The notes below the pieces were generated by a model. It was not told where the DNA came from. It made no database searches and saw nothing but the letters and a program-made list of their open reading frames with translations. The position numbers and the translations under genes were made by a program. Of a stretch of 64,000 bases of DNA, positions 5,015 through 63,478 are shown one piece after another. Every line of letters starts with the position of its first letter. Within the stretch, counting starts at the first letter, position 1. Location: assembly GCA_013368375.1 (NCBI GenBank), contig JAACJP010000034.1:248001-312000 (forward strand). The letters run 5' to 3'. This DNA is from Tricholomella constricta. Its lineage: Eukaryota > Basidiomycota > Agaricomycetes > Agaricales > Lyophyllaceae.

Positions 5015-7052
5015 TCAGCTGCCGCACTGGCCAGGCTTCTTGATGGGCGTCGCGACGAAGGGGCCGTTCGCGCACTGGAATCCGAGGGTATCCTGCTCAC
5101 CGGCCGCGAGCGATGTCGGGTCGCACAATACGTTTGCCTCCTTGGCGTTCGTGTGCGTGCGGATCTCGATGTCCTCGAGGGAGATGTCCACGGCTGTGAG
5201 GACAGGAGAGGGAAAGCGGAAGTCAGCGCTGGGTGAGGGATCGCGAGCTGCAAATAAGACGTACCGGTGCCAGGGTAGAGATCGAAGATAACAGACTTGG
5301 GCTCGTCGAGGCCGGGCACGTAGTTCCAGCACGGGTCGCTGATGCAGGTTCCGTCAGCTGCGAAGGGTGTTAGCAATGGATTGGATTTCGTGGCGCAATG
5401 GCAAATATGATGACGCACTCCAGCTGGTACCGAGGGTGCCCTTGATGTTCTTGTATCGGAAGTTCGAGACGCGGGTGCTCGACTTGTTTGGGTTGTCGGG
5501 GCGGGGGCCCTTATCCTGGTCATAGTAGCTGTTGTAAAGGAGAGACACGGACATGAGGCGAGCACTTAAAGCAGAACAAGCGAGAACTTACTTCTGGGTG
5601 ATGAAGATTCCAGTCGAGACGTTGATGAGAGTGATGTCCTCCCAGGCGATGTTATCCGCGAATCCCTGGCCGCCGGTCCAGCTCTTGAACTACACAAGCC
5701 CACAATCAGCACAACTGTGCCTAATGTTGTGATGGAAGAGAGCAGTTGGAACGCACTCGAGCACCATAGACTGCACCCTCCATCGTCCAGTTCTTGAACA
5801 GCACGTTCTGGACGGTGTGGTTTGCACTGTTGCGGCCGAGAGAGCCAATGGAAAGACCGTGCGAGGCGAAGCCGCAGTAGCCGTTCTTTGCGACGATGTC
5901 CTTGGCGCCGTTGATTACAGAAACACAGTCGTCGCCGTTGTGGCCATAGTAGCTGCAGGTTGCAAATGTTTAGGAGTTGTGACGGAGAGGTAAAAAGAAT
6001 ATGCACCCGTCGACGGTGATGTTATGGCCAGAAAGGTTAAAGCCTGAGATATGGAACGTAAAAGTGAGTTATAGACCGAAGCTGACTGGGGTGTGTAGAT
6101 TACCATCGCTGCGAAAAGGGATGAGCAACTGGCGTAGAATTTCGGATAGAATAAGGAACTTACGTGTTGAAGGGGAAGCTCTGTTAGGGAGGCCAAACGA
6201 GCGATTCATCAGATTCAAATGGAAAGCAAAGCCCAGGGGAATGGCTTACAATGGTCGAGTCGCGTGTGCTGTTGTTGGGCGCTGCGTCGACAAAATGGTT
6301 CTCCACGCGGATGTTCTTTCCGGGGAGGTTCCACCCCCAAGCGATGGGCTTGATGACCTTGAGGTCTTTGAGGAGACCTCCAGTGACGTTGAAGGTCGCC
6401 AGTTGCGGGCGGAGCACCTGAGTGTGTTATCAGATGAGTTTACGAGGTGATACATTGCTAAGAGAGCGCGTACCCGGTTGCCAATGTCCCACCACTGTTG
6501 GCCGTATCCGTTGAAGCGGCCCCATTCGAAATCTTTAGAGCCTACGATGGTAACGTCGGTTCCTTGAATGTAGAACCACGGCGTCGCATAGGTCTGGGTG
6601 GCCGAGGTGTCAGCACGGGGAGCGCAATGCTAGAAGGCATTGTAAGGGCGACGCACACTGGGCTGGTTCTGTGTAACGTTGATGGCGCGCTGAACGGTGC
6701 CCATGTCCTTGGGCAGGTTGAGATTACCATTTAGGTGTACTACGACGTTTTCTATTCACAACAAAAAGTCAGGTCAACAAATATAACCTGTGCTGGAAGT
6801 GCTGAGGAATGACATACTAAGTCCAGCGAGGGTGATTGGCGTGTGAGCATTATAGTCCACCTTCTGAAACTCGATGACCGAGTCCTTCCGGCAATCCTTA
6901 AAGGCCTTCAGGATGTTGTTCGAGTCGTCCTTGCCGTTCTTGTTGTGCTTCACCGTGCACTTTTTGATGTTGATCTTGCCGGCATCGGCGGGAATAGAGA
7001 CTGCCGCCAGCACCAGAACTAGCGCGGCCAGATAGGTTTGGGAGAAGATCAT
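5015..7052 (-). CDS. Secreted GH28 polygalacturonase (exo-acting type)
   Basis: A many-exon glycoside hydrolase family 28 gene. The start at 7052 gives a signal peptide (MIFSQTYLAALVLVLAAVSI, then PADAG). All GH28 hallmarks are present in order: NTD (FPFNTDGFNLSG), the double Asp in HNGDDC, the His in SHGLSIGSLG, and the Arg/Lys pair in YGARFKSW. The hydrolysis catalysts are therefore intact. The R-F-K-S-W form and the N-terminal block resemble exo-polygalacturonases and related exo-pectinases rather than endo enzymes; exact substrate is uncertain. Exons are tiny near the active site: 6164-6180 (17 nt), 6104-6108 (5 nt) and 6007-6043 (37 nt), with introns of 55 and 60 nt between them. The 5-nt exon carries the NTD aspartate. 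Other exons include the N-terminal one down to about 6817, with GTATGT as donor, and the C-terminal one ending KKPGQCGS at 5015. The enzyme would act outside the cell on pectin. Confidence 0.92.
6104..6108 (-). other. 5-nt micro-exon of the GH28 gene (NTD aspartate)
   Basis: On the minus strand the preceding exon ends AAC-AC before GTAAGT. The five bases CGATG lie between an acceptor (TTTTCGCAG) and a donor (GTAATC). The next exon begins GC-TTT-AAC. Joined, they read N-T-D-G-F-N, the universal GH28 signature. Skipping the five bases gives an immediate stop. The two flanking introns would be 55 and 60 nt, normal for this genome. Confidence 0.85.
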
Positions 7053-40900: not shown

Positions 40901-41211
40901 GGAAACCTCCGAACTGTGTAAATGGACTGTTGACCTTTCATCCCTTCCCACATTCCAGCAGAACGCTACAATGCCTCAGCCCGGCGGGTTTTACACTGGT
41001 AAGAGATTAAAGGTCTTACTCTGGTGGCTGAGCTAAACTTTGATTAGAATTCGAGCTGGGATTGGAGCTGGATAGTGCCGAAGTCCGTGGAATCTTATTG
41101 TACAATAGCCAAGAATGGGGAAGGTAAGCTTGCTTACTTCCCTTGCCTTGGTTCTAGATTGGACTGACGCTCGACACGCACGGCAGGGTGACCTTTGACT
41201 TTCTGAGCTAA
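37905..41211 (+). CDS. HSPA12-like Hsp70-family ATPase
   Basis: A gene of more than a dozen exons for an actin/Hsp70-fold ATPase of the HSPA12-like kind expanded in mushrooms. The N-terminus is MGCCGEPVDTATPQQPTHVY followed by about 150 Pro/Ser-rich residues. The ATPase domain then begins MSISIDFGTTFSGVAYG (phosphate loop 1), rebuilt over exon 38429-38448 (20 nt). Further blocks are DVWLTVPAAWDAKGCDIMRE, RLRIITEPEAAAVHCAYL, FVVVDAGGGTVDL (phosphate loop 2) plus AVYK from a 12-nt exon (39367-39378), and ALLLVGGFAGSEYLKQRVE (adenosine motif). The C-terminal part (SKGAILRKG, FVAVLYTSDTERIMRYTDEG) ends at GRVTFDFLS, stop 41211. It lacks the classical Hsp70 substrate-binding domain, as HSPA12 proteins do. 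The client and role are unknown. Gly2-Cys3-Cys4 suggests lipidation. Exons between 38.6 and 39.0 kb and near 39.7-39.8 kb are less certain. Confidence 0.88.
38429..38448 (+). other. 20-nt micro-exon encoding Hsp70 phosphate loop 1
   Basis: The previous exon ends ATC-GAT-TTT-G before GTATTT. These 20 bases follow GTACAG and precede GTGCGT. The next exon starts after GGTAG with GCA-TAT-GGT. Together they read I-D-F-G-T-T-F-S-G-V-A-Y-G, the nucleotide-binding loop shared by Hsp70 ATPases. Confidence 0.8.
39367..39378 (+). other. 12-nt micro-exon after Hsp70 phosphate loop 2
   Basis: Four codons (AVYK) between TTGTAG and GTATGC. They join DAGGGTVDL upstream to ITGQMANLEIAEMCARSGAN downstream, matching the strand that follows phosphate loop 2 in this family. 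Confidence 0.75.
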
Positions 41212-43675: not shown

Positions 43676-44570
43676 CTATAACCCTAGTTGTTCCTTTATA
43701 GACTCTCGTACTATCCGCTCGTATTCCTCTCGATTGTCTCGGTACAACTTGCAGCAATCTATGTTAGCACCGCTCTCAAGGTTCGGTTCTTGATTGAAAG
43801 CGGGGTGATCGGTGATCCACGACATGCGAGTGGACTGATTTAGCTTACCTGCCAACATGGATATGACGCTGAGTATGACCTTCTCGACGCTCTGCACGGG
43901 GCTCCAGCGCTCCGACGCCTGTTCATACATGGTGGGATCGTCCCCAGGCGTGTGCAATATCGAGATGCACACGTTCCCATCGGCATAAACTAAATAAAAG
44001 TGCCCCATCAGCAGAGTGAAAAAAACACTCGCGATCGCGCCCCTCTCACTGTTCGGATGGAACAACGGGGGGTCAAATTTCATCTTGAATGGGGATAGGG
44101 GATAGTCTGACGGCTGGGGCGGTGGCGAGCAGTCAGTTTCCGTGTGGTATATGTCAAATTTCGGGGTGATCACATAACGTACGAATGTCAGTTTCGCTGC
44201 AAATACACCGCCTTCCTGCAGAAATGTAAGTGAACGATTTATGCGCGTCCTACGGCCACCGAGCTGCCGCTTACAAAAGGCGTATCCTTGGGGCCACAGA
44301 TGAGCGCCTCCCAGGTGAAGAAGTCCGACTCGGAGATTGGGCCTGTGCGAGATGAGAAAAAAGATTAATTCGGCGCAGGACATCACTGTAAGGAATGGCA
44401 GATTGTACCCGCAGTGAACATCCCATCGGGAGAGCCTGGCGTGTAGAATGACTTGATCAGGAAGCTGAACTTGAGAAAGATCAGCGTGATTACATACCTC
44501 CCGAGGTCAACTGCTTGTATTCAGTCATGAGGCGACGCAACGCCGTTGCACTCGAGCTCCTGCCAGCCAT
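43676..44570 (-). CDS. UBC7: Ubiquitin-conjugating enzyme E2, UBC7/UBE2G2 type
   Basis: The start at 44570 gives [25 protein letters not shown] 27-nt exon (44409-44435) adds SPDGMFTA, then [20 protein letters not shown]. Later exons add [31 protein letters not shown] and [20 protein letters not shown]. Cys at about residue 96 (GNVCISIL) is the thioester cysteine. The acidic insertion after it ([20 protein letters not shown]) is the hallmark of the UBE2G/UBC7 class. It ends [12 protein letters not shown], stop at 43676. Family members work with Doa10/Hrd1-type ligases in endoplasmic-reticulum-associated degradation. This is a separate class member from the UBE2G1-type gene at 54.6 kb. Confidence 0.93.
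44409..44435 (-). other. 27-nt micro-exon of UBC7
   Basis: Minus-strand bases between an acceptor ending CGCCAG and a donor GTACAA. They restore the frame [17 protein letters not shown] expected of UBE2G2 proteins. Confidence 0.8.
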
Positions 44571-45039
44571 TGTTTTCAACAGCCTGAATGCGCGCCGGGT
44601 TATGGGAAGAAACAGAACGCTGTCTCGTGCAAGGAGTTGATTGTTAGGGCTGTCACATGACGCCTTAACCCCGGCGCGAACAGGTCGGTCATGGCGAGGT
44701 GGCGACCTCTTTAACAACCGCACGACCATCATCACTGCTCTCTGTCAATTCAATGATCCAAGTATCCCATGGAGACTTATGGTGTTGTGACCTGAATTTC
44801 ATTTCGTAGATGCGCCGCAGCAAATGGTATATTGTACACACGTCAGTCCTTTTACATATATATAATACCTTGGGCTTTGATCATGACACTCATCAGCCCC
44901 AAATGTCGCAGTCAGCAGACGCACGCCATCTCGGGTGCAAAAAGAATGCAAAGTCGGAAATCTGTGGCATGAATGGCGATAGATGTGCCACAGATTATTC
45001 CCGACGAAAGGCGAAGCAAATGGAAAATTCCAGTACGCT
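44571..45039. other. Intergenic region between UBC7 and RPC2
   Basis: About 470 bp upstream of UBC7 and downstream of RPC2, both minus strand. No supported gene. Confidence 0.5.
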
Positions 45040-48000
45040 TTAGGCATCATCAAGGACGAGCCGGGGTACAACATTCATTGCCATTAGCTGGTGAACAATT
45101 TATCGGTAAGGAAGAGGGTAAATTCATTCGACATAGGAGCGCGTACCTCTTGGAACAACAGCTTCGCTGCATATGGGATGGTCAACTGCGCCATCTTTTT
45201 AGAGCTCTTGCAGTACGTGCACCAGCCATTGTAGCCCATGAGGCCGCACTCTTCGCAGGCGTTGACCTCAAATTTGTCGGATGAAATCATCAACCGCTCG
45301 AGTAGCAGCTGTGTTGCTCCGTATCCAATCAGACAGTCCCGCTCCATCTCCCCTAATCGGAGGCCACCTTCTCTTGACCTACCTTCCGTCGGTTGACGGG
45401 TCAGCGTTGCGCGAGGCCCCCTGTGTCCAGAAGAGAGGGTCATAAGGGTGATATTTGGAGTTTAGGAGGATCTAAAGCCCCACCTTGCTCGAGCGTGCAT
45501 TTTGTCCATCACCATGTGTTCTTTAAAATGTCAGTGAGAGGCGGTACAGACCATCACCAAGATATTGACTTACTGAGTTTCTGTGGGAAGTGCTTCAGTA
45601 GTCCATATAAGTTAAGCTTGGTATATTGGGCTCACCTGGTAATAGATGGGGCCGAAAAAGACGTATGCCTCGAGAGGCTCGCCAGTTATGCCACTGGTCA
45701 GCATATCCTTACCGGCATAACTGAATCCGTTTTCCATCAATATGCTACTCATGTCTTCGACCTATGACGAATCTCAACGCCCGTCCTGTTTCCACGGATC
45801 GGACACTTACTTTGGAACCGCCGAATGCAGTGCCATACTGGAGGTTACCGCTAAGAACACCAGCCTGATAACTCGTCAGGAGGTATGATCTACAATTCAC
45901 CACAACAACGCACCTTGCCGGCCAACAGCTCGATCATCTTCCCAACAGTCATTCGGGAAGGGAACCCGTGAGGATTCATGATTGTATCTGTGTAGACAAT
46001 GAGCGGAACGTGCAGCGAGCTATTTTGGGTTAACCTACCCGGGCAGATTCCGCTATCATTGAAGGGCATGTCCTCCTGATTTACAATGAGTCCACAAACA
46101 CCCTTCTGCCCATGCCTCGACGAGAACTTGTCCCCCAACTCGGGTCTCCGCGTCTGGCGGATCAGGACTTTGATCAGTGTCTGGTCGTTCTCCGTGTCGC
46201 TAATCATGACTTTGTCGATGTTCCCTGCGACAGGTGATTTGTAGGTCATCGGTGTGTTCTTGTAAGGCACTGACGCGGCCTGTCCTGTGAAAGTATTGTC
46301 TGTTGCGTTAGTCGGTGACTGCTTGTTGATGTAGATGTCGCCGGGATCAACACGCTCGCCAACACCTGCCAATCCATCCATCTGGATGATGTCATATTTC
46401 TTTGCAACCTGCCCGTTTTCGTCGATGGGCGCGTCGGCTAGGCGATCGAATCTATGGAAGGAGTTAAAAGTTGAAGCAAGAAGCATTGTCCTTGGACGCT
46501 CGTCAACTCACGTGCCGTTGGGATATTTGCGGATGAGAGTTGCATTCTTCCGCAGGACTTGACATCGCCCATAGCCGCGGTCAAGACTGGCCTATGACTA
46601 GGAGTTAATTGTATCCCGCGAGGAAACGTGTGTAGCGCCTAACCTTATTTAAGATAAGTGCGTCTTCAATATCATAGCCGGAGAAACTCATGACTGCAAC
46701 CGTCGCGTTTTGGCCGGCTGGAAGGCGGTCGTATCCAATTAGCTCGATGGTTTTAGTCTTTACCATCGGCTGCTGGGGATATACGAGGAGGTAGAGGAGT
46801 GTGTCGATTCGGTTGAGTTGGTTGTAGGCGATGACACCAATGGCTTGTTTACCCATCGCGCACTGATAGGTATTTCGTGGTGATTGATTGTGATGAGGGT
46901 AGGGAATCAGTCCCGCAACGGCACCGAGCAACGTGAAGGGCTCGATCTCCAGATGCGTCGTAGTAGGGACGATGTCCGATTCGTAAAGCGCGATATAGGT
47001 ATCGTTCTCCTCGTTGACATCGAGATATTCCACAAGGCCCTTACGAAGGAAATCATCAAACGTAACGGTGCCTTTCTTGAGAAGCTGTAGTTAAGACGTC
47101 AGTGCCAGGTTCCGGATTCCAGCTGAAATCCGATCGTACTGCAATATGCTCCGAGGTAACTTTTGGTCGCCCATTCTCCACAATGATCATGGGACGACAG
47201 ATCCGGCCACCATCGCTCGCGATATGCACAGCGTGGTGGTGATTGTTAATGTAGACGCTGACGAATTCGCTCATACGTCGGGCGCGCCGAAGTTTTCGGA
47301 ATTGCGCCACGAAGCGGGTGGGATACCGGGTAAGGCCAATAATGGTACCGTTCACGTTGACGACGAAGGTGTGTGGACCGTATATCTCCGTTCCCGTGGC
47401 TAAGCTGATGTCTAAAAAGGACGCTGTCTGCCATTGGTCTGATGCAGGTCGTTTGATAAAACGCACCTTCTACACCTAGCATAAACGCAAGGCATATGAT
47501 TGGCTGCTCATCCACGTCTGTGGTGATGTGCGTCATTAACGCCAGGTTCTTAACCAGACCACAGGCTTCGCCTTCGGGAGTATCACTGGGACAGAGGACA
47601 CCCCATTGACTTGGCTGCAGCGCTCTCGGACCGCTGACCTTCCTGGTTTTTTCGAACTGTGAGGAAATTCGAGTCATCATGCCCAGCGCAGAGATAAAAC
47701 TCAAGCGACTGAGGACGTGTGTGACTCCTGCGCGCTCCATCTTGAACCGCTTTAATGACCAGTTCCCGGTGGAAATGGCACGAACAAATCCCGACGTCAG
47801 GTGGTCCCCTTGAAATTGCATAGTGTTGAAGGCATCGAATTCGCTGGTCCTGGAGGGTTTCTTCAAGACTTTGTCGATCGCAGATTTAAGATTGGTGTTA
47901 TATGTCTTGAATAGATCTTCGAAGAGTAGGGCAAGCAGTTGACCGGCACTATGAGACGATCAGAATCACAAAGAACAAATGGGACCGAACTCATACAGTT

Positions 48001-54557: not shown

Positions 54558-55476
54558 ATGTCTAAGCCCGGAACAGGCAGCGCTTCAAACACACTGCTCC
54601 TTCGTCGACAGTTGACGGAACTGACTAAACGCCCAGTGGAAGGATTCTCAGCAGGCCAGTCTTCGCCCTTTCTCCCATGTTAAAACCGCTACTGAGATAG
54701 ACACCTTTAGGCCTCGTCGACGATGACAACCTTTACGAGTGGGAGATCTTGGTAATCGGGTATGTTCTGTCTTCGTATATATCATCACCGTATAGTATAT
54801 TCACATCGCCCTAGCCCCCCTGACACTTTGTAGTAGGTGCAATTCCTGACTCGCGATGAACACCATGCTGATGCAGATCTACTACAGTGAAGGGGGATTC
54901 TACAAAGCGCGATTGTCATTTCCCCCAGAGTTTCCTCTTTTGCCACCGAAAATGCGGTTCTTGACTCAGATGTGGCACCCAAATAGTAGGGAATTGTTTC
55001 CTTCCTTTCACGTTTCCGGAGCTTTTGTAACCTACTTGCGCTCGCAGTCTACCCAGATGGCACCGTCTGTGTCTCCATCCTGGTGAGCCAACCTTTCCGA
55101 TGTATTGGATGATAACTTACGCCCTCTGCCCTCATAGCATGCACCTGGTGACGACCAGTATGGCTACGAAGATGCGGGAGAGAGATGGATGCCGGTGCAT
55201 ACAGTAGAATCAATTGTGAGTCCCGGCTTCCAGCCTCCTCACCTTTTGCACGCTGATCACCCTTGGATCGTAGCTCATCAGCGTTATATCTCTATTGTCG
55301 TCCGATACGCCCAACCTCGACAGTCCGGCCAATGTTGACGCGGCGAAGGAAGTCAGGACTGATATTGATGGTATGTGAACATGACCTGTCTCTGTTGGAT
55401 ACTTTTCTTACCTGGCCTTCAAGGGTACCGAAAGAAAGTTCGAAGGTTGGCCCGAAGGAGTGCCGAGGATGCCTGA
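54558..55476 (+). CDS. UBE2G1: Ubiquitin-conjugating enzyme E2, UBE2G1 type
   Basis: Eight exons: 54558-54654, 54711-54759, 54815-54829, 54888-54985, 55048-55082, 55138-55215, 55274-55370 and 55424-55476. They sum to 522 nt, or 173 residues. The protein reads TLLLRRQLTELTKRPVEGFS, LVDDDNLYEWEILVIGPPDT and EGGFYKARLSFPPEFPLLPP. It continues YPDGTVCVSILHAPGDDQYG and GERWMPVHTVESI. Cys94 is the thioester cysteine. The long acidic insertion after it is the UBE2G signature. LDSPANVDAAKEVRTDID and a basic tail end at 55476. It parallels human UBE2G1. The first intron uses a GC donor, and exon three is 15 nt. The E3 partner is unknown. Confidence 0.92.
54655..54710 (+). other. Candidate GC-AG intron in the UBE2G1 gene
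   Basis: The frame requires GCA-G joined to GC-CTC-GTC, which gives GFSAGLVDD as in UBE2G1. The only way to do so is a 56-nt intron starting GCCAGT and ending CTTTAG. A GT donor four bases downstream gives an early stop. Confidence 0.7.
54815..54829 (+). other. 15-nt micro-exon of the UBE2G1 gene
   Basis: Bases CCCCCCTGACACTTT between GCCCTAG and GTAGTA. They encode the GPPDT core of the E2 fold, split between three exons. The next exon begins T-GAA-GGG-GGA after CTACTACAG. Without it the frame is lost. Confidence 0.75.
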
Positions 55477-55778: not shown

Positions 55779-58700
55779 ATGTCGAAGCCGCCGAAGGAGT
55801 CAGCATATGCCAAGCGTACGAGTTCTGTGTCAACTCTATTCAGGAATTAGTTGCTGACTTCCTTGCCAGGGAACATAACGTCGATACCTGCTCCCCTTGG
55901 TTCGTGGCCCGTAATGGTCGCGTTGAACGCATTCTGATTTATCTGAACAGAAGTAGACTCTGATTCTGACTTTGCTCCAGGAGCTTATGTTCCTGAGCCA
56001 GCGAAGAAGCGTAAGAGAGGCAGTACCATCGCGTCGACCTCATCTGGGGTTCGGCCACAGCGTAAGAGAAGGAATGATGTTCTTGGTGCAGGCACGTCTT
56101 CGCCGAAGGCAAAACGCGGTGTGTTTGTATATGAACTCTCCCGAGTATTGGAAATCTCAACAGTCGATGACTCTAGTGCCGCGTCGTTCCGCCGAGCTTC
56201 AGGAACCTAACCCACTGCTGAAGTATTTTGGTGAATCCCTGAATATTTTGATAAATTGCATCGTAATTGATATTTGTCAATAGCGGAGGAGAATCTTGAT
56301 CTTCATTCAGAGTCAGAAGGTGAAAATGACGAGCACGAAAGCATGGAAGACGCGGAAGAGGAGGATGATGAGCCGGTGGTATTGAAAACATTTGTCGGTT
56401 TTATTCGCGACAAGGACAAGACCCCAATGTCCCCAAGTCCCAGTAATAAAGGCAAAACGATTGATGCTGCTGCTGATGATTCTGCGACAGGTATAAGTTG
56501 TGTTCGAACCTGTTGTTCAATTTTTGTTAATCTTTTCTGAATAGAATCAGACTCTGAAGCGGAAGGTGACTTTCCAAGGATGCCTGCCCGAATGCCAGAC
56601 CAACTATACCCCAGTAAACGAGCCAGGGTGGAGAAACGTTGAGCTTAATGAATCCCGTGAAAGGCAATAGCTAACTTCATTGTGCAGCGCCGGACGAATC
56701 GGTAACGGAACCCGAATCTGATGTGGATGAAGATTGGCCAATACACGCAGTGAAGTCACAACCATCTTCTGCATCTGATTCGGAAACAGAGTCCGACTCT
56801 GAATATGATTTGGCGGACCCGGTAATTATTCGTTCATGATTATTAACCCTTTCCCTGATGCCCGCTCATCTCACTTGTCATTTAGCGTCTCAACCCTCGA
56901 CCAGGCTTCCCACTTGCGCCTGGACAGCCACAACAAGGCCCCTTGATTCTCGACGAAGACAAGAAAATAGCGGTTCCTTCGTCGATCAATACATATCTTC
57001 GCGACTATCAGCGGGACGGCGTGCAGTTCTTTTGGAAGCAATATTCAGAGGGCCGTGGTGGGTTGCTTGGAGATGACATGGGCTTGGTGCGTCAAAGCTT
57101 CTTTTTCCTCGTCACTCTCAATTCAAATCAACCGCCATTCAATGTAGGGTGAGTGTACATGCCAGCCTTCATTTGAAATGACGCTGAAAACGGGAACTAG
57201 GCAAAACCATTCAGGTCATCTCATTTTTGTCCGCCATCATGCAAAAGAAGGGGGTAATTACCGACAAACATCGGCGGAAGAAGCATGTATCTCATCTGCA
57301 GGACCTCAAGGCTTGGAAGAAGAGAAGAGAATTGCCACCTGCCGATGCGACATGGCCTACCTGCCTCATTATTGCTCCGAGTACCGTAGTACATAACTGG
57401 CAACGCGAATTTGAGACGGTGGGTGCATCTCTGCATTTCCCACATCTGGCCTAACCGAGTTCAGTGGGGCTACTTTGAAGTCGGTCTTTACAATGGGAAT
57501 CGAAAAGAGCGCGAGCCAGTACTGCATGATTTCAAGATGGGTAGGCTCGATGTTGGTGCGACTGTTACTCTCCTCTCCATTGCCTTTATAATGCTAAAGC
57601 CCAACTTAGTCCTTACCACATTTGATCTCGCGCGACGTGATATAGATATTTTGGATAGTCTTCCTTGGACCTGCGTCTTCGTTGACGAGGTCCACCGGGT
57701 CAAGAATATCTCTGCCAAGATAACCGTTGCATACCACCAGTTCGTGTGCAACCGCCGATTTGGCCTCACTGGGACCACGATTCAAAATTCTTACAAGGAG
57801 ATGTGGACGATCCTGGACTGGACGAATCCTGCACGACTTGGCACAGCTAGGCAGTGGCAAGGCTTCGTGGTAAAGCCGTTGACAGCTGGGCAGTCTACTG
57901 GAGCGACTGAGGAAGAACGTGCAAAAGCCCTTGTGAGTACTCAATAATCAAATATCGAGCGCTCATAATCTGCTATCTAGGTGGTTGCTCTCGTTTTAAG
58001 AGATAAGCTACTGCCAAACTTCTTTCTCCGAAGGTAGGATTCTACGTATTTGACTCCCATGATGGCCGAGGCCTGACTTTACCTTTCCGACTAGGACGAA
58101 GGATATCATCAGGAGTCAGGTATGCGGTTCTTGTTATCCCTTGTTATCCCCCACTCCTCTGATTACCAAACATCTCCTAGCTTCCCAAGAAAACCGATGA
58201 GGTCGTCTTCTGTCCGTTGACCCTACGGCAAATAGCGGTTTACAAACAGATCCTGAACATGGTGCCTGTTCAGAACTTGATACATCGCGACGATCCATGC
58301 TTCTGTGGTTCTCGGAAAACGTGAGCAACTCCTGACATTTCGTCCACATGTCCATTTTTATTCAATGTGGGTTATCAGGCGGAAGAATTGCTGTGGTCCC
58401 TTTGTCCCTGGAGATGTCTTCAAATACATGTCGATCCTTATTAAATTGTCGAACCATCTTGCGTTGATTCTTCCATGTTGGTCTTCGCTCCTCGATTACC
58501 TTCTATGGCCACTGACATACCGATCCAGCACCCAGTGACAGTCCCGAACAAGTTCTTCAATATTATTCCCCTGAAGCGCCATCTGCTTACCCCTTGCTCT
58601 TGATCTAGATAGCGCGGAATAGGGCTTTGGCCGAGCTCGCATTTCCAGAGGGTAATATTCCCAAATATGGGACGGCCATGATGCAGCCGAAGTTCTGTGG

Positions 58701-60573
58701 GAAGTGGGCAGTACGTTGTTGCTTCGGTCTGCATACCGAGATAATCCACTGACCAAGTCTAGGTATTGGAACACTTGTTAAAAGAGTGGAAGAAAGACGC
58801 CACAAATAAAGTCCTTATCTTCACGAAGTCTGTCAAGTTGCTTGAAATGCTTGAATTTCATTTGAACTCGAGAGGTCGGTGCTCTTGGGCCTGTTCCACC
58901 TCTGTGTGTGTGCTAAGTGCAATATAGGATACGGATTCCTCAAACTGGACGGGAGCACTAAGCAAGCAGATCGTAAGGAGCCTACTCTCGAACGTTACAG
59001 CGGTTAAATTTGATTTGCCCGTAGGTATGCCTATGATTGACAAATTTCAGACGGATCCAGACGTTTTTATATTCCTAATCTCGACGCTTGCTGGTGGAAC
59101 GGGGCTAAATCTTACGGCGGCCAACAAAGTGGTCATTTTCGGTAAGGGCACGCGCGATACTCTGCTATCTATTCGCCTCAGCTTATCAGGCTTTCTATAG
59201 ATCCTAATTGGAGTGAGTCTCTTTCCCTGTGTCGCCTTTCGTATTCACCAACGATTACATCACACATTAGACCCCGCGCACGATCTCCAGGCTATGGACA
59301 GGTAATCCCCGATGGATGACTAAATTTTCTCCGTTCTGATTTTCGCAGAGCGTTTCGCTTCGGCCAAACGCGCGATGTCTCTGTCTACCGGCTTTTAGGC
59401 GCAGGATCTGTGGAAGAATTGATTTACGCACGTCAGATCTACAAGCAGCAACAGATGGCTATCGGTTATGAAGCCAGTGTTCAGACGAGGTGTGGGCTCA
59501 CTGTATCTTCTTCATGGCCTTTCGTGGCTCACCAGACACTAGATACTTCGAGGGCATACAGGGGGATACTGCGAAGAAAGGAGAGCTTTTCGGGATCGAG
59601 AACATCTTCAAGCTCCATGAAGACAAGCTTGCAACGAAAATGGCGGTAAGAGTTCGGCGTCTGTGATACTTGATCTGACATTTCTAGCAGATCGAGAAGG
59701 CAAATCTTGCAGAATTGGACTGGGCACTCTCCCATATGGGAGGGGGGTCCAGACCGAGAAAGCAGAATAAAAATGTCAACGAAGAGTGGTTTGCAGAAGC
59801 TGAGGCAAAAGGTTTGAAAGATAAAGACGATGTGGTGAGCACCAAAGATCATATCGGTGTTTCTTCAGGATAGATCTAACGTAGATCGACAGGGTAATCT
59901 GCGAGGGCTGGGAGCCTTGCTGTTTGATGATGGTAGGATAATCACTGGGTCTGCAATGTCTACGCTAAGCACTTTCAACGGTTGTTAGCCCCGCCATCTG
60001 CCGAAACGCGAGAACAAGATGCGATTCAGAAAACGCTCAGCGCGATCGGCGTCAAGTACAGCCATCACAATGATCAAGTCCTCGTTCCAAGTCGCATTGA
60101 AGAAGAGCGCACGAAGAAGACTTTGCAGGTCAGCTCATCCTCGATGCGTTATATCAGTTCATCATTTACAAACATATTATACAGAAGACACGCCGAAGAA
60201 AGTCAAAGCCTAGGGCCGGGTCTCCTGAAAATGCATCCCCTAAACCGCAATGGCCACCAATCCGGAAACACCATAAGCCTCGACCTTCCCCAGAGGAGCA
60301 GTAAGTGAATCCTCTCATCGAAATCGCCGCCTCTCTCACAACGACCTTCCAGGTTGGCTTCCAGACACCAGGCTCTCATAGAACTCGGAATGATAAACAA
60401 TCCTAGTGATGTTCCAACCTTCGCCCGAGATTTGTGAGTTTCAATTCGACCACTTCCGTTATTGTATTGACATGCAATTGTCATCCAGCGCTCGACAGCC
60501 TCCTGAAATGCAGCAAGAAATCATTGCGGAATTGGATAAGTGGGCTAGGATGCGAGACATCGACTCCGATTGA
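55779..60573 (+). CDS. SNF2-family DNA helicase, ERCC6L2/Rad26-like
   Basis: A many-exon SNF2 ATPase of the ERCC6L2 (Rad26-like) class, linked in other organisms to DNA repair. The start at 55779 gives [12 protein letters not shown]; an acidic/basic disordered region follows ([20 protein letters not shown]). The ATPase reads [39 protein letters not shown] (Walker A), [31 protein letters not shown] (DEVH box), [11 protein letters not shown] and [20 protein letters not shown]. The second lobe reads [40 protein letters not shown] and [20 protein letters not shown]. The end, [20 protein letters not shown], stops at 60573. The exon before 58,608 ends at EQ, with a 51-nt intron starting GTTCTTC. 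A single-nucleotide exon at 57148 is required for Walker A. A partial dead copy lies at 9.3-10.1 kb. Confidence 0.92.
57148..57148 (+). other. Single-nucleotide exon in the helicase Walker A motif
   Basis: The upstream exon ends GAC-ATG-GGC-TTG at 57086 in phase 0, and the downstream exon starts at 57201 with GC-AAA-ACC-ATT. One base is needed to rebuild L-G-K-T. A lone G at 57148 has an acceptor (AATGTAG) directly before it and a canonical donor (GTGAGT) directly after it, giving introns of 61 nt (57087-57147) and 52 nt (57149-57200). See findings for alternatives. Confidence 0.7.
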
Positions 60574-61021: not shown

Positions 61022-63478
61022 CTACAGATTCGTCGCTTCGTCCGCATTGAGTATGAGAGTCGTAAAGAATCGAATCATCTCCAGGAATGCGTCGATCTCG
61101 ATAGCTATGTCACACATTCACATGTCATTCAGCGCGTTGGGTGACGATGATCAATACGACGTACATTCGTTCACAGTGTGCACGCCGCCCGCGAGCCTGT
61201 TCGTCTTCGTGCCTGAATTTCTGTGGTTGTAGCGGAAAATATGCTTCGTCAAGTCCCAGTAGTAACGCGTATCTGCAGTATTACACCGCATTTGAGCCCC
61301 CACTCCAAGTAGCAGAAGCGATAGTATGATATGATAAAGCTCACCCGTGTTTCCAGATGGCATCCCTGGGCTCACGATGATCTCGTCTGCCCCGGAAAGG
61401 CCCCGATGTGAATTATACGTCGCCTTAATCGTCCCGGAGAGAAGCTGGTAGGGTGCGGCGTGCTTGTCTGTCGGAGTGACGGGTGCAGGCTCCAAGGCGG
61501 TGTGAAAGGCGTCACTGAGGGTCAGTGTCCCACTCGAAGGCGCGCCGTCGGCTTGTGTGGAGAGCCTGGTCCCAAATGCATTGTAAGTAAGGTTAAATTC
61601 TCTTGCAAGATTCTCGAGCAGCTGAGAATCATGGATTTTCACTTCTCCGACGGAGCTGTTTGATATAAGGTTCGGTTTTCAAAGCTGCGAAGCGGTGCCT
61701 GAACATACCTGATGACGGAGATGCGGTGATTGACGACTGCCCAGGCCTGCTCGGGGAGTGCATTGGCTTTTACGCCACCCTCAATCAGAGTGACAGCCTG
61801 CGTCGTGCCCACCATGCTCTTGTATATTGGGTTCCTGAGAATCTCCTTCTCCAACTTGTGCAGATCTTTTTTTGATGACCAAGACCTCTTGATGGTCCTG
61901 CGCAACTCTTCTGGCAAATTCTTGCCATGCTCGGCGAAACACTGAAGTGTGCTGAAGAGGGGATCTTTTTTCGTCTTCGTATGGTATTAGATGTCATACA
62001 AAAGGTCGAAAGGGCAAGTAGCGAACCAGTTGAACTCGGTATGGATTGGCTTCGTATTCGACGAGAAGGGCAGAAAGGATGCCGATGCTCTGGGAGTGTT
62101 GTCGCATCGAATCATTCCAAAATGTCGCGGCAGAAAAGGCTTACAGTGTGCTGTGGAGGTATGCTTGAATGACCACCAGGTGCGGTGACTTCGACACGGA
62201 CGTCCATGTAGCCCTTCTCTGCGATCCCAGGCGTGGCGAAAACAGAGCCATGCTGCTCGACGAATCCTCCTAGGATGTGCATGTGACGATTGCACTCTCA
62301 GTGGATGACAGAACTACATACCACCCTCGTCCACGATGAAAGCAACACCGTCCTTCCCGTAATAGTCAAAGAGGGCTGAAGCGAGGTGTCCGGCGCCCTG
62401 TACAATTGCGGTTTTAAGCGTAGGTCCGAACCGTTCTAAGAGCAAGCATTGCAGACCTGACGCCCACTGACTTCCTCATCGAATCCGTATGCGAGAACCA
62501 CCGTCCGCGTTGGTTTGAAACCCTGTTCGATAAGTGATTCGACACTGGATCTGAACATCCTAGGGTCAGAGTCCGAAGTAGAATAATTGTCGAAAGACAG
62601 ACAGTGAGCCGATGAGCCCGCTCTTGTCATCGGAACTTCCACGACCCCAGATTTTTGTGCCTAACCTCTAAGATTCACTATAAACTCCTTGATCAGCTAC
62701 CTTGGACGTACCATCATAGAACCCCGAGTAAGGGGGTCGTGTCCATTCATCCACGGTCGATGGGTTGACAGGCACCACATCTAAAGGGCGGGTGAGCTTT
62801 CGTGGCTCAGGAAGGGACATACAGAAGTACATACCCTGATGAGCGGCCAAGACGACCGGCTTCAGCAAGGGGTCGGAGCCTTGCCATACATAGATTAGGC
62901 CATACACATTGACCTTGGTCAATTTCAGTGTTGCGTGCCTAAGGAAAGAATGGGCTCGGTTCATGTCCAACAGGCACGGAGATTGAACAACTTACACTAG
63001 CGGGAAAGCGCTGGCAAGATAATTGTGGAAGGGCGCGAACGCATCCCAACGAGCATCCTCACCCACTGGTCCCATGTCATCGTAGGACTCTGTCCTGGGA
63101 TACCCAGGGAGTGTGTTAAATGATAATTTCGACTCCCGACATTGAACGTGTTATAACTCACGGGATTCTGACTGCACCTCCTAACCAATCGATCGCCTTC
63201 GCCTTGAACTTACCCGTCCCGAATGTCGCGCCCAACGACCTCCACAACACGCCATTCTTCTCCGGAACCAGAACATCGCTTTGTGCACAGCGGGAAACAC
63301 CTTCGGCGACCGGCTTCGACCTGATAGCCTGCGTACAATTCCATACGTAGGCTCCGTAGAGCAGGATACCTAGTGAGACCAGGAGCTTGCGTGCGAGGGT
63401 ATTGCGCTTGGGTTGTCGGGCGGGTGGTGAGGGCAACAATGGGCCGACACCTCTTTTCTCGCTGACTGGATGCTCCAT
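61022..63478 (-). CDS. CPS1: Vacuolar carboxypeptidase S (M20 family)
   Basis: A membrane-anchored M20 metallopeptidase that cleaves Gly-Xaa-type peptides in the vacuole lumen. The start at 63478 gives MEHPVSEKRGVGPLLPSPPA. It is followed by one membrane anchor (KLLVSLGILLYGAYVWN). The metal ligands are visible in VVLAAHQDVVPVNPSTVDEW and IWGRGSSDDKSGLIGSL, then AYGFDEEVSGRQ (the catalytic Glu-Glu) and AFIVDEGG. APGGHSSIPPQHTSIGILS is the dimerisation-domain His region. The C-terminal catalytic lobe has SGADEIIVSPGMPSGNT, DTRYYWDLTKHIFRYNHRN and, after a last intron, SIEIDAFLEMIRFFTTLILN, then stop at 61022. It has about ten exons, most joined at introns of 50-60 nt. The start at 63478 is preferred to an upstream in-frame Met at 63676, which would add 66 unlikely residues. 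Confidence 0.93.

Follow-up and report, generated by a model that had tools for sequence, protein, structure and literature searches.

Single-nucleotide exons have been described in a fungal nuclear gene and in plants, as far as the excerpts of the papers available to us extend. The exon of this kind in the Fusarium gene CYP621A is documented by 20 Fusarium orthologues and 18 RNA reads (PMC12940212); the same source also notes a Phanerochaete P450 with an exon of 8 nt, and in it Nelson and Syed propose that a boundary base was lost inside a motif and rescued by a cryptic intronic AGGGT. The 1-nt exon of Arabidopsis APC11 was shown experimentally with GFP fusions (PMC4674806), and the 1-nt microexon of plant VPS55 is alternative in some lineages (PMC8831610). 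A single-nucleotide exon case is also on record for placozoan mitochondria (PMC5436844), and the phrase occurs in two papers on fungal mitochondria (PMC12308204, PMC8208691). A related fungal arrangement is the [D1,2] stwintron, in which an internal intron interrupts the donor of an external intron after the first base of that donor (PMC12403724). A preliminary description of the locus reported here rightly called such exons extremely rare; its single plant precedent is joined, in the excerpts available, by plant VPS55 and Fusarium CYP621A.

Sequence and gene model

The window, i.e. the whole stretch of 64,000 nucleotides that was analysed, represents positions 248001-312000 of contig C34 of the Tricholomella constricta assembly (44.1 Mb, 118 contigs). 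The training set of a small gene finder was the window together with C34:1-200000, 264 kb of this genome in all. Reference introns were the finder's own predictions, as a strict set of 63 and a relaxed set of 281, with GT (few GC) donors and AG acceptors only. The introns under study are in neither set; the 281 were checked, and the strict set demands 60 nt or more of exon on either side, which rules out a neighbour of 1 nt. Scans of the window with Rfam (gathering threshold) and ARAGORN found nothing. The features discussed below are as follows.

56886..60573, plus strand: core of an SNF2 ATPase gene (finder model with three edits by hand; Pfam domains)
56886..57086, plus strand: upstream coding exon, ending in ...GDDMGL (TTG), phase 0 at its end (sequence, gene model, ERCC-6 alignment)
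57087..57147, plus strand: predicted intron 1, 61 nt, GTGCGT...ATGTAG (enumerated path, signal scores)
57148..57148, plus strand: candidate 1-nt exon, a G that would open the glycine codon of Walker A (G/GC) (path enumeration, signal statistics)
57149..57200, plus strand: predicted intron 2, 52 nt, GTGAGT...AACTAG (enumerated path, signal scores)
57201..57418, plus strand: downstream coding exon, starting GC-AAA-ACC (KTIQVISFL...) (sequence, gene model, PF00176 match)

The gene core comprises 24 exons including the 1-nt exon, with 808 codons open. Three changes were made to the finder's model: an intron called at 57254-57301, inside the downstream exon, was dropped, one at 57541-57609 was added, and one was shifted to 58973-59024. 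The true start of the gene lies upstream of 56886, perhaps at a putative ATG at 55780. The core matches SNF2-rel_dom (PF00176, 187.9 bits), Helicase_C (PF00271, 85.1 bits) and VIGSSK (PF14773, 27.7 bits), and in a comparison with solved structures the best relatives of the ATPase were ERCC-6 (CSB) chains. The SNF2 and Helicase_C domains and ERCC-6 as closest solved relative place the protein among CSB/ERCC6-like SNF2 ATPases; by its resemblance, it is presumably ERCC6L2-like. The window also holds two genes, at 54558-55370 (plus) and about 43676-44649 (minus), roughly 10 kb apart, which presumably encode ubiquitin-conjugating-enzyme-like proteins; the finder fused each of them to a neighbour.

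Frame demand and splice paths

The locus reads ATG-GGC-TTG to 57086, GTGCGT from 57087, AG at 57146-57147, G at 57148, GTGAGT at 57149-57154, CTAG to 57200, and GC-AAA-ACC from 57201. Rebuilding GDDMGLGKT from the TTG that ends at 57086 and the GC-AAA-ACC that starts at 57201 takes exactly one added G, as the preliminary description had deduced, and the lone G that it had singled out between an AG and a GTGAGT is indeed found at 57148. Its further premise, that all SNF2 ATPases read DDMGLGKT here, was too strict: this form occurs among paralogous loci of the genome, alongside DEMGLGKT, EEPGLGKT and DEMGMGKT.

Splice paths were enumerated with GT/GC donors at 57040-57189, AG acceptors at 57060-57230, a minimum intron length of 35 nt, and zero or one internal exon. 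Among the 54 enumerated paths that stay open through 57419, a single one gives GDDMGLGKT, namely intron 57087-57147, G57148 and intron 57149-57200. With G57148 included, the Walker A motif aligns to the ERCC-6 chains without a gap. Skipping the base (57086 joined to 57201) leads to a stop 19 codons later, and retention of either intron, or of both, also leads to a stop. When SNF2-rel_dom fragments of 213-219 residues from four splice variants were compared in Pfam, the variant with the 1-nt exon scored highest (152.2 bits), followed by those reading GLCKT (148.1) and LVRKT (140.4) and by the variant with GKTIQ deleted (124.4).

The frame and the motif thus call for exactly one base at a point where one base is bounded by the AG and the GT of two canonical introns of spliceable size, with predicted branch sites. 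On these sequence features, G57148 is very probably an exon in its own right, flanked by two ordinary U2-type introns and used constitutively. The earlier proposal of such an exon is thereby supported: the only motif-restoring canonical path of the 54 has ordinary signals.

Splice signals and intron lengths

The lengths of 61 and 52 nt given in the preliminary description are correct and lie within the reference range of the genome. For the 281 reference introns (40-250 nt admitted), the median length is 56 nt; 85% measure 45-70 nt, 6% at least 100 nt and 1.8% between 100 and 130 nt. A single intron of 114 nt in place of the two would be an outlier, because the modelled gene core otherwise has 21 introns, all of 45-69 nt.

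The best branch-like sites in the two introns are as follows.

57116..57121, plus strand: predicted branch-like site of intron 1, TCTCAA, whose A at position 57120 lies 28 nt before the acceptor
57183..57188, plus strand: predicted branch-like site of intron 2, GCTGAA, whose A at position 57187 lies 14 nt before the acceptor

Relative to the 281 introns, intron 1 falls in the 60th percentile for the donor, the 87th for the acceptor, the 26th for the branch and the 66th for the total score; its total falls in the 38th percentile of the strict 63. The corresponding percentiles of intron 2 are 90th, 32nd, 79th and 88th, and in the spliced context TGG (intron 1 gone) its donor falls in the 62nd and its total in the 74th percentile. 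Relative to the strict 63, the total of intron 2 is in the 44th percentile (22nd in the spliced context). Its acceptor at 57200 is weakish, in the 6th percentile of the 63 as well as the 32nd of the 281, and rivals that keep KTIQ need this acceptor too. Both donors, GTGAGT (28 occurrences) and GTGCGT (27), are within the three commonest of the 281 introns, none of which has GTCAAA as its donor.

Scored by signals and lengths, and with no exon-length prior against tiny exons, the two-intron path reached 20.1 vs 6.2 for the single intron 57087-57200, a difference of about 14 natural-log units. Other paths scored 6.6 (57087-57214), 7.1 (a path with T57154 as the single base) and -1.7 (LVRKT). The T57154 path, the second 1-nt candidate of the locus, gives GLCKT and loses the glycine, and was rejected.

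Chance of such a site

Introns of 114 nt with the same ends were simulated 300,000 times, with both halves required to be at least 45 nt. AG-G-GT was present in 1.1% of them, and the sum of acceptor, branch and donor scores was at least as high as observed in 13 of the 300,000 (0.004%). On both strands of the 264 kb, AG-G-GT occurs 427 times and AG-N-GT 1,699 times; the core score of the present site is reached by two of the 427, itself included. The other, at C34:184083 (minus), is the only AG-G-GT there whose core signal score exceeds that of the present site.

When sites near the ends are set aside, 1,696 AG-N-GT remain, of which the present one has the top combined score (28.7, via an acceptor at 57214); with the acceptor at 57200 its score is 27.8 (12.98 + 14.82) vs 27.7 for the runner-up. 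Its first rank on signals alone is narrow, but its position, exactly where the protein needs a base, is not a narrow matter. Searching the genome for the 18-letter context of the site, with up to three mismatches, yielded 115 matches vs 46 for a reversed control, an excess due in part to repeated copies.

Proposed splicing and origin

In the CSB/ERCC6-type SNF2 ATPase, G57148 would begin the codon for the glycine of Walker A (MGL-G-KT). Each of the two short introns may be recognised as a unit (intron definition), and the two would be removed consecutively, in either order; the splice sites are probably too close to each other for simultaneous occupancy. Removal of intron 1 first would leave TTGG/GTGAGT, with a donor that is still good, and removal of intron 2 first would leave GTAG/GGC, with an acceptor that is still good; either order would yield the mRNA ATG-GGC-TTG-G/GC-AAA-ACC. 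What the genome sequence shows is the frame demand, a path that is unique among those enumerated, and the strength of the signals; splicing in this manner, its constitutive use and the order of removal are what we infer from it.

For the origin of the arrangement, duplication of an intron was considered and rejected, as introns 1 and 2 are unlike each other: their local alignment scores 7, and 31% of 500 shuffles do as well or better. The locus also does not resemble an introner or other repeated intron: when a 171-base region across it was compared with the 44.1 Mb assembly at E-values up to 10, no match appeared apart from the region itself, in a search that passes over simple repeats and highly frequent words. 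A scan of viral contigs returned no orthologue. The single intron found at the corresponding point of a paralogous locus (see below) would be compatible with an origin of the kind proposed by Nelson and Syed.

Alternative explanations

A missing G at a junction through an assembly or sequencing error, with one intron of about 114 nt as the true structure, is unlikely. Only the assembly was read, a GG pair is present at each junction (57086-57087 and 57200-57201), and introns of 100-130 nt do make up 1.8% of the 281; however, the mistake would have had to fall on one of a few bases, the resulting intron would be overlong for this gene, and the mid-intron AG-G-GTGAGT would have arisen by a chance met 13 times in the 300,000 simulations. 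A true 1-nt deletion, with the sequenced allele being a non-functional or frameshifted copy, agrees with the truncation of the protein when the G is skipped, but is very unlikely for a gene core whose 808 codons, with SNF2 and Helicase_C domains, are otherwise open, and it too would make a coincidence of the AG-G-GTGAGT. The same mRNA, and LGKT from a single intron, would be obtained with one non-canonical intron, TG-AG at 57088-57200 or, equivalently, GT-TA at 57087-57199. Such borders are very rare among spliceosomal introns, and the internal AG-G-GTGAGT would be left unexplained, so that we consider this solution highly improbable as well. The TG donor at 57088 scores below all 281 reference donors, which is not independent evidence, as donors other than GT/GC and acceptors other than AG are outside what the finder accepts. 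Another way to LGKT, a -1 ribosomal frameshift on TTG-G, was rejected; no slippery site was seen, and the internal site would presumably be left without an explanation.

Two in-frame choices would give a dead ATPase. The preliminary description had noted that a GTCAAA donor at 57091 keeps the frame and gives LVRKT, which is correct; the hexamer is the one absent from the 281 introns, and its donor score lies under all of them. The acceptor at 57214, 14 nt into the downstream exon, outscores 57200 as the acceptor of intron 2 and was preferred by the signal-only search; joining 57086 to 57215 stays in frame and loses GKTIQ, which would make this a possible ATPase-dead isoform. That either choice gives the main product is extremely unlikely, since the Pfam score falls in a protein that is otherwise intact, although one or the other could be used for a minor isoform. 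It is also unlikely that the one-base exon acts as a regulated on/off switch, in which inclusion of G57148 would give the active enzyme, skipping a truncated transcript prone to decay, and the 57091 or 57214 choice an ATPase-dead protein. Constitutive inclusion of G57148 between two canonical introns is thus the reading that we adopt.

Other tiny exons and Walker A introns in the genome

A 7-nt exon at 45574-45580 (minus) of the window, in the gene of the Pol III subunit RPC2, completes YYQKLKHMV; over 197 residues that include it, the protein matches the RPC2 chain of PDB 5fj8 closely and ungapped. A 5-nt exon at 6104-6108 (minus), in a GH28 polygalacturonase-like gene, completes NTDGF, which is aligned with NTDAF of PDB 1ia5. 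Micro-exons in conserved motifs thus seem to be in use in this genome.

In a set of 20 stretches around SNF2 matches of this genome, chosen partly because matches broke there and hence not a neutral selection, 11 are readable with one GT-AG intron (47-62 nt) in or at the Walker A motif, two are unbroken, and in seven the script found no motif. The insertion points and phases differ among the 11 (L029-L035, L042, L043, L046 and L047). In L033 the intron occupies the same point as intron 1 (TTG/GTGAGT...CAG/GGA, 56 nt). An intron after the leucine of the motif is therefore ordinary, and the unusual part of the present locus is a second intron one base further on.

The finder itself called five 1-nt exons in the 264 kb, i.e. 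the present one and those at 41187 and 62835 of the window, C34:40474 and C34:184083. Its own call is weak evidence and was not relied on, because no fewer than two of the remaining four calls appear to be false. Judged by the sequences of the respective families, a plausible coding stretch ending in HQ/D was passed over by the finder at 62835 (M20-type peptidase), and a conserved stretch is missing at C34:40474 (mitochondrial carrier type). The call at C34:184083 would need an intron of 288 nt, and for the call at 41187 no homology support was seen.

Comparison with known systems

The exon described here is a probable addition to the known, very rare class of single-nucleotide exons, judged from its sequence context. 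A literature search that covered mostly titles and the beginnings of abstracts, and few subscription journals, returned no 1-nt exon in a nuclear gene of a basidiomycete; within the same scope, and with the phrase Walker A not among the queries, it returned none in a Walker A motif. The passages on microexons in two fungal genome papers concern aligner settings alone. If confirmed, and within the scope of that search, G57148 would be the first 1-nt exon reported in a basidiomycete nuclear gene and the first inside a Walker A motif. The locus illustrates why annotation pipelines would label such a gene as broken, and it lends itself to a clean test of whether intron definition by itself is enough for the splicing of a one-base exon.

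In common with [D1,2] stwintrons, two fungal introns would be removed from one stretch in consecutive reactions by intron definition (PMC12403724). The locus is nevertheless not a [D1,2] stwintron, as the donor GTGAGT (57149-57154) and the acceptor (57146-57147) are uninterrupted and one exonic base would be kept. Plant VPS55 likewise has a 1-nt exon, there with a conserved GTRAGT donor, but that exon is kept across diverse land plants and is supported by RNA-seq and RT-PCR (PMC8831610). In Arabidopsis APC11 the 1-nt exon is constitutive and needed for the frame, as proposed here; it differs in being a plant exon whose base is an A, in a stretch of 422 nt annotated as one intron (PMC4674806).

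The Fusarium exon belongs to an ascomycete P450 and supplies the middle base of a codon, whereas G57148 would supply the first base of a codon in the Walker A motif of an SNF2 ATPase; the Fusarium case has RNA reads and orthologues, whereas the present exon was read from genome sequence alone (PMC12940212). In both cases the gene is fungal, the exon is the central G of AGGGT and contributes to the glycine codon of a conserved motif (PKG in CYP621A), and two short introns would make up an apparent single intron of excessive length (139 nt in F. graminearum and 114 nt here).
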